Below, piece after piece: positions 10,836 through 26,279 of a stretch of 41,687 bases of DNA. The notes under the pieces are model-generated. The model made no database searches. It was not told the origin of the DNA and saw nothing but the letters and a program-made list of their open reading frames with translations. Source of the DNA: Candidatus Omnitrophota bacterium (lineage in GTDB: Bacteria; Omnitrophota; Gorgyraeia; Gygaellales; Profunditerraquicolaceae). The DNA is taken from NCBI GenBank assembly GCA_018895075.1, contig JAHIOW010000039.1, positions 1-41,687 of the forward strand, in the 5' to 3' direction. Made by a program: the position numbers and the translations under genes. The stretch's first letter is position 1; the number at the start of each line of letters is the position of its first letter.

Positions 10836-10974
10836 ATGAGCAGATAATTTACGGAGAGAAGCAACGTAAATTATAGGCCGAAGGCAGTCTGCGAATTTAA
10901 CCCCGACGTATCGTCGGGGTAAGTTCGTGCAAACAATTTATGTTCACTTCGTTCCATAAATTGTGCACTCAATT
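10836..10974 (+). repeat. Multi-hairpin intergenic element between mlaE and mlaF
   Basis: This gap inside the mla cluster holds three strong hairpins. Hairpin 1 is ATAATTTACG (10844-10853) with CGTAAATTAT (10865-10874). The middle hairpin is CCCCGACG (10901-10908) with CGTCGGGG (10912-10919). Hairpin 2 is ACAATTTATG (10933-10942) with CATAAATTGT (10955-10964), extended by GTGC/GCAC (10927-10930 and 10965-10968) across an AA bulge. The mlaF ATG follows after the weak AATT arm. There is no Shine-Dalgarno sequence. Its layout parallels the element at 14768-14874. Confidence 0.75.
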
Positions 10975-12374: not shown

Positions 12375-12389
12375 GTTAAGATTGTGGTT

Positions 12390-13790
12390 ATGAAAACTAA
12401 GACCGTATTTAGTTGTCAGAATTGCGGTTACCAGTCGCCTAAATGGTTAGGCAGGTGTCCTGATTGTAGCAGTTGGAATTCTTTTGTGGAAGAGGATTAT
12501 ACCGCCCCGTCAACAAAAACCAAAGAAAGAACATCCCTGTATAAAGATGGGCCGGTGTTATTAAAAGATGTAGAGGTTAAGCAAGGCCATCGGGTTAAGA
12601 CAGATATCTTGGAACTGGATAGGGTATTGGGTGGAGGAATAGTAGCAGGTTCGGTGGTATTGATAGGCGGAGATCCGGGTATCGGTAAATCTACGATAGC
12701 ATTGCAGATTTCTAACCAGTTGACTAAGCAGGGGGTTGGAGTTCTTTATGTAAGCGGTGAAGAATCAGTTGCCCAGACAAAATTAAGGGCCCAGCGCCTG
12801 AAGGCGCAAAAAGGAAAGGAGGCAGACCTATATATAGTTAATCAGACGGATTTGTCCTTGATTATTGAATATATAAAAAAAATAAAACCTAGCGTGGTAA
12901 TTATTGATTCTATACAGGTAATGTTTGAGCCTACAATTAGTTCTTCGCCTGGCAGTGTCAGTCAGGTAAGAGAATGCGCTGGTATACTTACACAGTTAGC
13001 CAAGACTACCGGCACGGCTATTTTTATTATTGGGCATGTGACCAAAGAGGGGGCTATTGCCGGCCCCAGAGTCCTTGAACATATTGTGGATACCGTACTT
13101 TATTTTGAAGGGGATAAGTTTTCATTATATAGGATTTTGCGGGCAGTAAAAAATAGGTTTGGTTCAACCAACGAGATTGGAGTCTTTGAAATGGGCGCCT
13201 CAGGCCTGAGCGAAGTTAAAAATCCTTCAGAGATTTTCTTATCAGAGAGGCCCAAGGATGTTTCGGGCTCGGTGGTTGCCTCTATCCTAGAAGGAAGCCG
13301 GCCGTTGTTAGTAGAAGTCCAGGCATTAGTGAGTAAATCAAGTTTTGGTTACGCTTGTCGTCGAACGCAGGGGTTTGATTATAACCGGTCAGTCTTATTG
13401 GTAGCGGTGTTGGAGAAAAGAATGGGTTTGTGCTTAGAGGCAGAGGATATATTTATTAATGTTGCCGGTGGCATAAAAATAGAAGACCCGGCAGCGGATT
13501 TAGCGGTGGCAGTGGCAATAACCTCAGCCTTTCGCGAACAATTAGTCCTTGCTGATACTTTGGTTTTGGGCGAGGTGGGGCTGGCAGGGGAAATCAGGAG
13601 TATCTCGCAGGTGGTTTTGCGCATAAATGAAGCGGCAAAGCTTGGATTTAAGCGTTGTGTATTACCGAGAAATAATTATAAGAATCTGGATTATAAAAAT
13701 GAGGCAATAGAATTAGTGCCGGTTTCAAATTTAAAAGAGGCATTAGAGATTGTGTTAAGCCTGCCTGCCGGCAGGCAGGGAGGTAATTAA
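12390..13790 (+). CDS. radA: DNA repair protein RadA
   Basis: RecA-like ATPase and helicase that promotes branch migration in recombination. Its N-terminal zinc finger is [18 protein letters not shown], Walker A is [10 protein letters not shown], the RadA-specific KNRFG motif is present, and a Lon-protease-like domain forms the C-terminal third. A GTG at 12384 also opens the frame, but the ATG at 12390 gives the usual MKTKTVFSC start (466 aa). The last residues (LPAGRQGGN) come from a CCTGCC palindrome and are not family sequence. The stop overlaps the next start (TAATG). Confidence 0.95.
13760..13779 (+). repeat. Perfect 20-bp palindrome at the radA 3' end
   Basis: CCTGCCTGCC is followed immediately by its exact reverse complement. 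It encodes the last residues of RadA, and its right edge GG runs into GGGAGG (13778-13783), which is the ribosome-binding site of the next gene, whose ATG is at 13790. The same core occurs at 18296-18317 and in degraded form in lolD and ispD. Confidence 0.9.
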
Positions 13791-14767: not shown

Positions 14768-14874
14768 GTGAAGCCCAAACTTATGGAGCGATAGCGAAAA
14801 TAAGTTTGCTGGCTTAAATTCGCACAATAACTTACTCACACCTTTAGTGTTCGTAAGTTATGTGCTCATTTAAG
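14768..14874 (+). repeat. Two-hairpin intergenic element before ispD
   Basis: Hairpin 1 is AAACTTAT (14777-14784) with ATAAGTTT (14800-14807), with AAGCC/GGCTT (14771-14775 and 14811-14815) outside. Hairpin 2 is ATAACTTAC (14827-14835) with GTAAGTTAT (14853-14861), extended by GCAC/GTGC (14822-14825 and 14862-14865) and CTTAAAT/ATTTAAG (14813-14819 and 14868-14874). The last base of hairpin 2 abuts the ispD ATG. The two hairpins share bases 14813-14815, so their outer stems exclude each other. There is no Shine-Dalgarno sequence. Confidence 0.8.
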
Positions 14875-16795: not shown

Positions 16796-18241
16796 ATGCC
16801 TATTTCTATATACAATTCCCTCACCAGAAAAAAAGAACCCTTCCAGCCCTTAAACCCGCCGCAAGTCAATATGTATACCTGCGGAGTAACTGTCTATGAT
16901 GACTGCCATATAGGCCACGCCAGAAGCCTCTATATTTTTGATGTAATCAGAAGATACCTGAAATACAGGGATTACAAAGTCAATTTTGTGCGCAACATTA
17001 CCGATATAGACGACAAGATTATCAAGCGCGCCAATGAACTTGAGATTGAGTGGAGTGAATTGGTGCAAAGATATATAGCAAGCTATAAAAGGGACCTGGG
17101 ATTATTGGGAATTCGGGAAGGCATTCTGGATAAGGACAAGGAAGAGCCGCGCGCTACCGGTAACATTCCGGAGATGGTTGCATATATAAAAGATTTAGTT
17201 GATAAAGGTTATGCCTATGTTACGGATAGCGGGGTATATTTCAGCGTGCGTAAATTTAAAGATTACGGTAAATTATCCGGCCAGGGCATAGACCAGATGC
17301 TTAGCGGGGCGAGGATTGAGCCGAATGAGGATAAGCAAGACCCATTAGACTTTGCGTTATGGAAAAAATCAAAGCCCGGGGAGCCTTCCTGGCCGAGCAT
17401 GTGGGGCGATGGCCGTCCAGGATGGCATATCGAGTGTTCCGTAATGAGCCAGAAATTCTTAAAGACAGATACGCTTGATATACATGCCGGTGGCAGAGAC
17501 TTAATATTTCCCCATCATGAGAATGAGATTGCCCAGAGCGAAGCTTTAACTGGAAAGCCATTTGCTAAGTATTGGATACATCACGGCCTTTTGACTATCA
17601 ACGGCCAGAAAATGGCCAAGTCTTTAGGGAATTTCGTCACGATAAAGGATTTTATTGCGAAGTATAAAATCGCGGACTTTTTGAAAATGTTTTTCTTGAC
17701 CACTCATTATTCTCATCCAATAGATTACACAGAAGATAAAATTGAAGAAGCCAAGCGGGCGCTGGACAGAATTTTTATTTTATTTAAAAATATAGATAAG
17801 CATCTTTCAATGCAGAAATCTTACTCTTCAGATAAAAAGAATTTCGAGATATTAGGCGCCGAAAAGAGATTTATTGAAGCAATGGATGATGATTTTAATA
17901 CACCCAAAGCTTTATCAGTAATATTCGAGCTAGTTAATATGGCAAATAAGAATATTGATGATTTAGACTTTATTTTTAGTGCCAAAAATACAATAAAATT
18001 ATTTTTAGTAGAAATTTTTGGAATTTATCTTCCAAAAATTTTGGAGGCCCTTGATTTAAATCCAGTTATTCATATGTTAGGAAAATATGAAAGTATCCAA
18101 GATATAATAAGAGAAAGAGAGCGATTAAGAAAAAATAATAGATTTATAGAAGCTGATCAAATAAGGAAGGAATTAGAAGATAAAGGTATTATCTTAGAAG
18201 ATACTAAAGATGGTAAGACAACTTGGCGAAAGAAGTTATGA
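16796..18241 (+). CDS. cysS: Cysteinyl-tRNA synthetase
   Basis: Charges tRNA-Cys. It is 481 aa, full length. HIGH motif is CHIGHAR, the zinc ligands include C28 in TCGVTVYD and the HAGGRDLIFPHHENEIAQSE region, and the KMSKS loop reads KMAKSLGN. A DALR-type anticodon domain follows. The last third of the gene (from about 17860) is clearly more AT-rich than the first two thirds, for example about 22 percent GC by hand count in 17941-18000 against about 55 percent in 17401-17460. The C-terminal sequence GKTTWRKKL is normal for the family, so the gene is intact. Confidence 0.96.
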   Translation: MPISIYNSLTRKKEPFQPLNPPQVNMYTCGVTVYDDCHIGHARSLYIFDVIRRYLKYRDYKVNFVRNITDIDDKIIKRANELEIEWSELVQRYIASYKRDLGLLGIREGILDKDKEEPRATGNIPEMVAYIKDLVDKGYAYVTDSGVYFSVRKFKDYGKLSGQGIDQMLSGARIEPNEDKQDPLDFALWKKSKPGEPSWPSMWGDGRPGWHIECSVMSQKFLKTDTLDIHAGGRDLIFPHHENEIAQSEALTGKPFAKYWIHHGLLTINGQKMAKSLGNFVTIKDFIAKYKIADFLKMFFLTTHYSHPIDYTEDKIEEAKRALDRIFILFKNIDKHLSMQKSYSSDKKNFEILGAEKRFIEAMDDDFNTPKALSVIFELVNMANKNIDDLDFIFSAKNTIKLFLVEIFGIYLPKILEALDLNPVIHMLGKYESIQDIIRERERLRKNNRFIEADQIRKELEDKGIILEDTKDGKTTWRKKL

Positions 18242-18467
18242 GTGTACTTTTAACGGGTGGCTTGGGCTGATTTCGAGTGGGGCGTCCGAGGAACCCCCTG
18301 CCTGCCGGCAGGCAGGGAGCGGGCACGGTTGCCCAGCTAAATACGAAGTCAGGCAGAGAGCGAGGGTCCGCAGGCGAGCGAAATTTTGCCACGCTGGGGC
18401 AAAATGAGCGTCCCCATGAGAAACAGACCAAGACAGGACCCGTTAAAATTATGTATGTATAAACAAT
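18242..18467 (+). ncRNA. Candidate structured RNA or palindromic element between cysS and tmk
   Basis: This is the longest gene-free gap. An outer inverted repeat, TTTTAACGGGT (18248-18258) with ACCCGTTAAAA (18438-18448), encloses about 180 bases. Further pairings continue inward in register: CTTGG (18261-18265) with CCAAG (18428-18432), CTG/CAG, TTTC/GAAA, and TGGGG with CCCCA. Inside are a perfect 22-bp palindrome (18296-18317), GGGCA-cggt-TGCCC (18321-18334), and ATTTTGCC (18383-18390) with GGCAAAAT (18398-18405). The core is about 65 percent GC over 18301-18360. It does not resemble 6S, SRP, tmRNA or RNase P RNA as far as I can judge, and no promoter is evident, so strand and function are open. 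Confidence 0.45.
18296..18317 (+). repeat. Perfect 22-bp CCTGCC palindrome
   Basis: CCCTGCCTGCC is followed directly by its exact reverse complement. This is the longest intact copy of the palindrome also seen at the radA 3' end (13760-13779) and in degraded form within lolD and ispD. Here it lies in the apical part of the structured cysS-tmk gap. Confidence 0.9.
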
Positions 18468-19100
18468 ATGATTAAGAAAGGCATATTTATTACTTTTGAA
18501 GGTTCTGAAGGTTGCGGCAAAAGCACGCAATCAAGACTCCTCTATGGATATTTAAAAAGAAAGGGTCATAGCGTAATTTATCTGCGTGAGCCTGGCGGTA
18601 CAAAAATAAGCGAGAAGATAAGGAAGGTTTTATTAGACCCGGATAATAAGTCTATGTCGGCAATCGCAGAGACATTTCTTTATATGGCCGCAAGGGCCCA
18701 GGTGGTTAGCGAGGTAATTAGGCCTGCCTTAGAGAAAGGCAGGATTGTTATCTGCGATAGATTCTTAGATTCTACGCTTGCTTATCAGGGATATGGCCTG
18801 GGAATAGATATCCGGAGCATTAAATTGATGGGAGATTTCGTTACCGGAAATATAAAGCCGGACCTGACTATATTTTTAGACCTGCCTGTTAAAAAAGGAC
18901 TTAAGGTTTGCGGGCGGGTAAAAGACCGTATTGAAAAGAGGCCTTTGGATTATCATATGCGGGTAAGAAGAGGTTATCTTAGGCTTGCAGCTTTCCAACC
19001 CCGGCGGATAAAGGTGATAAAATTGGATAAAAATAAATCTGTAACCCAAGATAAAATAAGGAAGCTAATATCAGGTTGGATTCAAAAATTTAAGCATTAA
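18468..19100 (+). CDS. tmk: Thymidylate kinase
   Basis: Phosphorylates dTMP to dTDP. It is 210 aa. The P-loop is FEGSEGCGKSTQ, the DR(Y/F) motif is CDRFLDSTLAYQGYG, and LREPGGTKISEKIR is the expected dTMP-binding region. The lid region (CGRVKDRIEKRPLDYHMRVR) is typical. No Shine-Dalgarno sequence precedes the ATG. holB follows after 5 bases, as in Bacillus where tmk and holB are also neighbours. Confidence 0.95.
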   Translation: MIKKGIFITFEGSEGCGKSTQSRLLYGYLKRKGHSVIYLREPGGTKISEKIRKVLLDPDNKSMSAIAETFLYMAARAQVVSEVIRPALEKGRIVICDRFLDSTLAYQGYGLGIDIRSIKLMGDFVTGNIKPDLTIFLDLPVKKGLKVCGRVKDRIEKRPLDYHMRVRRGYLRLAAFQPRRIKVIKLDKNKSVTQDKIRKLISGWIQKFKH

Positions 19101-25291: not shown

Positions 25292-26188
25292 ATGCGGGTG
25301 GACAGAATAGGTGAGTTTGGTTTAATCGAAAGGCTTAAAAAATCCATAAAGACTGATTCCTCGGTTATTAAAGGCAGCGGGGATGATTGCGCGGTAATAA
25401 AATTTAATCAAGACCAGTATTTACTATTTACCTGCGATACGATAGTTGAAGGAGTAGATTTTAGGAGGCAAGATATGCCTTACCTGGTGGGCAGGAAGGC
25501 CTTGGCAGCATCTATCAGTGATATCGCCGCCTGTGGAGGAATTCCCCGTTATGCCCTCTTGTCGCTGGCTATACCTAAAAACATATCGGTTCATACAATA
25601 GATAAAATTTCTCAAGGGATATTCAACCTGGCTAAGAGATATAACATAAACATTGTCGGCGGAGATATAAGCAGGGCTAAGCAGCTAATGATCGATATAA
25701 GCATGCTGGGGGCTGTAGAGAAGAAATATCTGGCTTTAAGAAGCGGGGCGAAAAAAGGCGATATCATATTTGTAACAGGGAAATTAGGAGGTTCTATTTT
25801 GCGTAAGCATCTGGAGTTTACGCCTCGGCTGAAAGAGGCAAGATTCCTGGTTAAAAATTTTAGGGTGCATTCTATGATTGATATTTCAGATAGCCTAACC
25901 CAGGATTTAGGTCAGATTTTGAAAGCAAGTAAAGTAGGAGCGATAATCTATGAAGGGTTAATTCCCCTGAGTAAGGATGCCTTAAGTTTAGCCGATGCGC
26001 TTTATACGGGTGAAGATTTTGAATTGCTTTTTACCTTAGGGCACAATGAAGCAAAGAGGCTGTATGCGAAAAGACCAAAGGCTTTTAGGCCTATCGGAGA
26101 AATCATGGACCGAAGATACAATTTAATATTAGTGGATAAAAAAGGTAAAGGAAAGATTATCAAGCCAAGGGGCTTTCAGCATTTTTAA
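25292..26188 (+). CDS. thiL: Thiamine-monophosphate kinase
   Basis: Makes thiamine diphosphate from thiamine monophosphate. It is 298 aa of the AIR-synthase/PurM fold. Conserved segments are GEFGLIERL, KGSGDDCAVI, TCDTIVEGVDFRR and VGRKALAASISDIAACGG, followed by NIVGGDISRA and DISDSLTQDL. It begins 3 bases after mtnA. The stop codon adjoins a REP-like palindrome. Confidence 0.94.
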   Translation: MRVDRIGEFGLIERLKKSIKTDSSVIKGSGDDCAVIKFNQDQYLLFTCDTIVEGVDFRRQDMPYLVGRKALAASISDIAACGGIPRYALLSLAIPKNISVHTIDKISQGIFNLAKRYNINIVGGDISRAKQLMIDISMLGAVEKKYLALRSGAKKGDIIFVTGKLGGSILRKHLEFTPRLKEARFLVKNFRVHSMIDISDSLTQDLGQILKASKVGAIIYEGLIPLSKDALSLADALYTGEDFELLFTLGHNEAKRLYAKRPKAFRPIGEIMDRRYNLILVDKKGKGKIIKPRGFQHF

Positions 26189-26279
26189 TTAGGGACACCC
26201 TTTTTGCCAATCGGTGGTGTGTCCCCTAACTAACTGTCGAGGGGACATCCTTAGCTTTGGCTGGAAGGGTGTCCCTAAT
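26188..26279 (+). repeat. REP-like GGGACAC nested palindrome
   Basis: The thiL-tsaE gap is one long imperfect hairpin. The outer arms are ATTAGGGACACCCTT (26188-26202) and its exact complement AAGGGTGTCCCTAAT (26265-26279). The inner arms are TGTCCCCT (26220-26227) and AGGGGACA (26240-26247). Four copies of a GGGACA core in alternating orientation resemble REP sequences mobilised by REP-associated tyrosine (Y1) transposases. No transposase gene is in the window. Confidence 0.8.

Follow-up and report, generated by a model that had tools for sequence, protein, structure and literature searches.

The described systems closest to the element reported here are short palindromic repeats of three kinds. 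MITEs, among them Correia/NEMIS, ERIC, QMITE, and RUP, are non-coding sequences of 100–200 bp that carry terminal inverted repeats, lie between genes, and are dispersed (PMC10969869, PMC2229807); QMITE2 has direct repeats of 7–9 bp (PMC10969869; PMC2229807). Rickettsia palindromic elements (RPEs) are palindromic sequences of about 150 bp that occur as several families per lineage and have no known mobilizer (PMC10969869, PMC2229807). REPINs are inverted doublets that show compensatory changes in their hairpins and form populations within genomes (PMC3116915). The element we describe, a member of what we call family A, occupies the gap between cysS and tmk in a 41,687-nucleotide stretch of a Candidatus Omnitrophota genome (the window hereafter). 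We think it probable that it is a solo copy of an Omnitrophota family of mobile elements, about 175 nt long, non-coding, non-autonomous, and MITE/REPIN-like, whose folded strand would be the recognized substrate.

Family A resembles MITEs in being small, non-coding, multi-copy, and dispersed, and in having terminal inverted repeats (14 nt at 93% in the window copy). It departs from them in being GC-rich where MITEs are AT-rich, in having a multi-branched internal structure that covaries across the phylum, and in having a 3′ end that is always outer, with modular partners on the 5′ side; moreover, no parent insertion sequence was found for it. Inverted doublets, reminiscent of REPINs, account for 15 of 136 copies, the majority being solo or linked to other families. 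Unlike REPINs, however, family A has a unit of about 175 nt rather than a palindrome of 20–40 bp, shows an excess of apparent target duplications, and takes partners from different families. Since a link to RAYT, in the form of an association with Y1_Tnp genes, was looked for and not seen, we place family A outside the REPIN family. Its likeness to RPEs, compared by description only, lies in small size, palindromic character, coexistence with other families, and the lack of a known mobilizer. RPEs are noted for inserting in frame within genes, whereas the copies of family A that we examined lie in gaps between genes, and in a different phylum. We file the family as a new variant among mobile palindromic repeats, MITE-like in its general properties and REPIN-like in its doublets.

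An earlier note, made from the letters of the window alone, had proposed a GC-rich, long-range-paired element at 18242–18467. That element is real: the fold of the cysS–tmk gap is a closed rod with branches (−92.8 kcal/mol, z = −4.3), none of 200 shuffled sequences was as stable, and the opposite strand gives z = −4.3 too. The interval proposed proved to be that of the whole gap, and the element proper, as delimited by a covariance model, is the closed, multi-branched fold at 18248–18448, 201 nt long including a later insertion of 20 nt (Table 1). The outer 11-bp inverted repeat reported by the note was found at the two ends, where it sits inside a pair of 14-nt arms that are 93% complementary. 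This terminal inverted repeat, P1, has a longer arm in other copies (19 bp and perfect in L133). It seals a long rod, P2, from which at least two inner arms, P4 and P5, branch off; P3, a third one, is recognized by eye in the alignment only and stands outside the formal helix set. The window copy is itself one of the sequences from which the covariance model was built, and plain BLAST also aligns it with copies in other genomes at 76–78% identity.

Table 1. Features of the family A copy in the cysS–tmk gap and of its flanking genes
Feature	Position	Strand	Basis or remark
cysS (cysteinyl-tRNA synthetase), upstream flank	16796..18241	+	Pfam PF01406, E = 3e-125
Family A structured element, putatively mobile, solo copy	18248..18448	+	R1 match, 169 bits against a model that this copy helped to build, model 1-177 (full model)
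Left arm of outer stem P1 / terminal inverted repeat, TTTTAACGGGT	18248..18258	+	
P2 rod, 5′ strand, CTTGGGCTG	18261..18269	+	Fold; pairs with 18424-18432
20-bp REP-like palindrome, CCTGCCTGCCGGCAGGCAGG	18297..18316	.	Insertion between GGAACCC and GAGCGGG
P4 hairpin (TGCC...GGCA)	18330..18355	+	Double changes at 4/4 pairs
P5 hairpin, TTTTGCC-ACGCTGG-GGCAAAA	18384..18404	+	Loop nearly invariant, stem freely covarying
P2 rod, 3′ strand, CAGACCAAG	18424..18432	+	Fold, covariation
Right arm of P1, ACCCGTTAAAA, most likely the outer (3′) terminus of the element	18438..18448	+	
The two ends of the element, GCGGGTGGCTTGG and CCAAGACAGGACCCGC			
tmk (thymidylate kinase), downstream flank	18468..19100	+	Pfam PF02223, E = 1.3e-47

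The search for further copies that had been suggested at the outset found them both in the same genome and in related ones. The genome to which the window belongs (1.05 Mb in 73 contigs) holds three copies, including that of the window: a relative at C53:23542–23679 (74% by BLAST), which is full-length by the covariance model (C53:23552–23728), and a shortened relative at C63:42504–42574 (90% by BLAST). BLAST against 58 relatives gave matches in 29 genomes. Of 108 genomes of the same family, 85 were matched by a covariance model built from 24 diverse copies, as were 112 of 285 in a sample drawn from the whole phylum, with up to 25 matches per genome; genomes were sampled one per species, and the copy counts are lower bounds. 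When 84,980 species genomes were scanned for an exact pattern, all 23 contigs returned came from Candidatus Omnitrophota. Viral contigs held no exact match to the pattern, and a blastn comparison with 50,697 records of phages and 72,556 of plasmids found nothing, which led us to reject a phage or plasmid origin. The earlier note could match the element to no known RNA family, and a scan with the 4227 covariance models of Rfam bears this out: the window gave only chance matches (E of 0.72 or worse), and six other loci with copies gave none at E up to 1. Among the open-licence papers searched on Omnitrophota repeats or structured RNAs, none was found to describe the element. The family is apparently undescribed so far, specific to Omnitrophota, and present in many genomes of the phylum.

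There is strong evidence that the pairing is preserved while the sequence changes, so that the fold rather than the sequence persists. Within the 24 copies, 22 of the 29 predicted pairs show at least one compensated double change. When 111 copies are aligned, the conserved P2 helix has double changes at 5 of 7 pairs, 97.9% of pair cells are paired (versus 77.2% after shuffling, and 34–50% with the partners slid by 1–3 columns) and 564 cells carry double changes, where shuffling predicts 143; the alignment was made with the covariance model, and these counts are biased towards it. A count of P5 pairs anchored on the P5 loop only, and hence strand-neutral, found 914 of 938 cells to be Watson-Crick, 3 to be G-U, and 2 to be A-C, with all four pair types in use. 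The picture is the same as that from the model-based counts. The alignment of copies, which the earlier note had named as a check, thus reveals strong covariation among homologues.

Several features distinguish the two strands of the element. Tandem G.A internal loops (GAGC/GCGA) are conserved in the alignment on one strand. In 97% of copies the + strand is the more stable of the two, and once G-U pairing is disallowed this holds for every copy, an advantage that fits the conserved G.A motifs. G-U pairs outnumber A-C mismatches by 49 to 15, a ratio obtained with a model built on the + strand and from copies that are related to one another; we take it as a mild hint of a folded + strand, and it leaves room for an RNA role on that strand. 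The share of G-U in the whole structure (1.6%) does not differ significantly from that in tRNA stems of the same genome (2.7%, P = 0.16), and in P5 alone G-U is rarer than in those stems. An argument that the near absence of G-U speaks against RNA is weakened by this control, since only P5 falls significantly below the tRNA stems.

The family is dispersed, has amplified within genomes, occurs in both orientations, and fills a junction between genes that overlap in relatives where it is unoccupied. For 62 of 114 copies the nearest relative lies in the same genome, where 2.4 would be expected. Among 49 copies placed relative to their neighboring genes, 18 are in ++ and 21 in −− contexts, a random orientation that led us to reject a leader or cis-regulatory element. 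The cysS–tmk junction was compared in about 60 genomes. The genes overlap (gap of −6 or −3) in 14 of them; other junctions contain family A in either orientation (antisense in, e.g., L225 and L258), the quite different palindromic families B and C, or short remnants (29 nt in L256, 58 nt in L202, 106 nt in L260). Copies in the junction are mostly nearest to copies elsewhere and are shared only between pairs of closely related genomes. Filled and unoccupied junctions were compared across species rather than strains, and the unoccupied ones could in part reflect lost copies. We also considered co-mobilized fragments of tmk and rejected them; the fragments are contig ends.

Direct repeats flank the copies more often than chance predicts. 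A repeat score of 9 or more is reached by 4.1% of copies and by 0.63% of shuffled flank pairs, and a score of 7 or more by 19.3% and 7.7%, respectively. The best repeats are TATAATATTACTT (L282) and ATGAGTTTTAA (L090), the latter duplicating the start of the downstream gene, start codon included; in L177 the repeat GTAGGAARTTAT is found at the cysS end and at the tmk start. This excess of 9–13-bp repeats points to a target-site duplication. Clear duplications are seen in few copies, that of the window copy is weak and unconvincing, and the lack of a convincing one in most copies counts against a mobile element; it is, nevertheless, what would be expected if duplications decay.

The association of family A with other modules is one-sided. 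Of 136 copies, 50 have another module no more than 300 nt from the 5′ end, and none has one that close to the 3′ end (P = 7e-18); the 5′ partners are inverted A (15), B (15), C (18), and D (2), families B, C, and D being recognized by similarity to single examples. All ten close A–A pairs are head to head, with their 5′ ends together. Genome G010 has a C+A segment common to three loci and a B+A segment common to two, at different sites, each ending at the 3′ end of A. Since modules adjoin the 5′ side only and these segments end where A ends, the mobile unit most likely has its outer terminus at the 3′ end of A. The same rule could arise if new elements landed preferentially beside the 5′ end of A. 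Two copies in G010 (L086 and L091) that are otherwise 97% identical differ in the P4 hairpin as a block, which suggests exchange between copies.

The partner families were also seen on their own account. Family C (GCTGGAGGCGCATTAGAAAATTTTTGGCACAG..., about 180 nt) occupies the cysS–tmk gaps of L246, L233, L175, and L181 and the 5′ flank of L086, and is often joined to the 5′ end of A. Family B (AATGAATCTGTCG...CGACAGATTCATT, about 230 nt) lies in the cysS–tmk gaps of L224 and L248 and in the 5′ flanks of L084 and L092; it is modular, with internal palindromes of its own that vary between copies. Two further gaps of the window, 10836–10962 and 14768–14859, contain imperfect inverted repeats around AATTTACG/CGTAAATT and AACTTAC/GTAAGTT motifs and are possibly additional palindromic families.

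The perfect 22-bp palindrome that the earlier note had seen is present at 18296–18317 and consists of CCTGCCTGCCGGCAGGCAGG extended by a single base at either end. It is a passenger, because most other copies lack it and have GGAACCC directly abutting GAGCGGG (e.g., L079, L081). It is a separate, unrelated REP-like repeat that was inserted later into the window copy. The 20-bp sequence has ten exact copies in the genome, two of them in the window, and the short copy on C63, which is missing the inner arms, has this palindrome in the identical position. The proposal of a composite mobile palindrome was correct in kind, but the mobile unit would be the 175-nt element itself and not the palindrome. 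The palindrome had further been said to be shared with lolD, radA, and ispD; a scan of the window allowing up to three mismatches found it only in the element and at 13760–13783, the radA-like site, so that sharing with lolD and ispD was not confirmed. At 13760–13779 the 20-bp sequence lies inside the 3′ end of a radA-like open reading frame (12384–13790) and probably contributes codons to the C-terminus of the protein. Other copies of family A have palindromic inserts in or beside their hairpins (L116, 1639–1815 and beyond, e.g., TTCTCCTTCGCCAAGGCTTCGGAGAA; L100, 1613–1836), and it seems that small palindromes repeatedly target the hairpins of A.

We suggest that insertion of the unit duplicates 9–13 bp of the target and that the unit may travel by itself or joined at its 5′ side to a second palindromic module; both steps are partly shown by the repeats and composites described above. 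On an extruded strand or a single strand of DNA, a trans-acting recombinase or transposase would recognize the 3′ terminus together with the fold and mobilize the unit, and because that enzyme would act on the fold, selection for mobilization would keep the pairing. The window copy was later hit by the separate REP-like palindrome of 20 bp. The scheme requires no function of the element for the host gene pair. It is possible, though we are doubtful, that family A stands for a class of mobile elements in which a folded single strand (RNA or ssDNA), branched, conserved in shape, and flexible in sequence, is the recognition signal of an undescribed mobilizing enzyme, and which build their composites by linking interchangeable palindromic modules at the inner (5′) end alone.

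Among the enzymes that might mobilize the family, DDE_Tnp_1 is encoded in 23 and rve in 26 of the 108 family genomes, and both are missing from G010, G011, G034, and G122. RVT_1 occurs in 17 of the 108, with one such protein in the genome of the window (G000), and Y1_Tnp in 90, with two in G000. The MAGs are incomplete, so that absences of this kind are weak negatives; nonetheless, none of the four families tracks the element across genomes, and we reject them as its mobilizers. That the search of these families turned up neither a mobilizing enzyme nor an autonomous relative counts against the mobile reading. A REPIN-type element built of long modules and mobilized by RAYT, a Y1 HUH transposase, would account for inverted doublets and compensatory changes, both described for REPINs (PMC3116915), and for the frequency of Y1_Tnp, and yet we consider it quite unlikely: no copy of A lies near the 18 Y1_Tnp loci sampled, the two RAYT-like genes of G000 adjoin different palindromes (GGGGACAGTTCTA and GGGACACCCTTCC), and the element-rich genomes G007, G011, G029, and G073 show no Y1_Tnp. 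Y1 transposition of the IS200/IS605 type is not known to make target duplications, whereas family A has an excess of apparent ones. A SINE-like retroelement, whose folded transcript would be copied in trans by a reverse transcriptase, could explain direct repeats that vary in length (about 9–13 bp), a structured, strand-biased fold with conserved loops, and the RVT_1 protein of G000. We nevertheless regard it as very unlikely, given that RVT_1 is so sparsely distributed and is missing from the element-rich G010, G011, G034, G119, and G122, and that P5 is almost without G-U, with fewer such pairs than tRNA stems. Terminal inverted repeats, which family A has, are not known as a feature of SINE-like retroelements. 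The window contains a different inverted repeat at 26188–26279 (ATTAGGGACACCCTTTTTGCC...GGCTGGAAGGGTGTCCCTAAT, 23-nt arms, 87%); in the same genome, a RAYT-like Y1_Tnp gene (L359, G000:C48) has a repeat of the same kind downstream, and the window repeat looks like a RAYT-linked REPIN.

The remaining alternatives dispense with mobilization of the fold. The earlier note had offered a structured non-coding RNA as one of two readings, and an RNA acting in trans or in cis, selected for a cellular function of its own (e.g., intercistronic processing or attenuation) and multi-copy by chance, agrees with the strong covariation, the greater stability of the + strand, the excess of G-U over A-C, and the site between co-directional genes. 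The structural half of that reading stands. A single conserved RNA gene does not, because the element occurs in many copies and in both orientations relative to genes and has inserted at independent sites; dispersed, near-identical copies had been named as what would refute an RNA gene, and the copies are dispersed but, within this genome, diverged rather than near-identical. We think a cellular RNA unlikely, since copies are antisense to their flanking genes about as often as sense, the same gap in relatives is vacant or contains a different family or a copy in inverted orientation, copy number runs from 0 to 25 among related genomes, copies group by genome and not by position, no terminator was found inside the element, and its promoter signals do not rise above weak consensus matches. 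A passive inverted repeat, in which covariation came from arm-templated correction (quasipalindrome template switching) instead of selection on the fold, would explain why the P5 stem is nearly perfectly Watson-Crick despite its use of all four pair types and why P4 differs as a block between near-identical copies. Correction should, however, erase the unpaired G.A loops and near-invariant hairpin loops that persist within the stems across the phylum, and the G-U share of the whole structure is not significantly below that of tRNA stems; this explanation, too, has little probability in our estimation.

If family A is, as we think probable, a mobile element, then structural covariation, the usual mark of a functional RNA, here accompanies mobility, and covariation-based discovery of RNAs in metagenomes calls for corresponding caution. 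Mobilization is directly testable thanks to the unoccupied cysS–tmk junctions, the one-sided rule for composites, and the short list of candidate enzymes. Family A accounts for some of the sequence between genes in Omnitrophota MAGs, and it represents a repeat family widespread in a poorly studied phylum, in which the fold, and not the sequence, persists.
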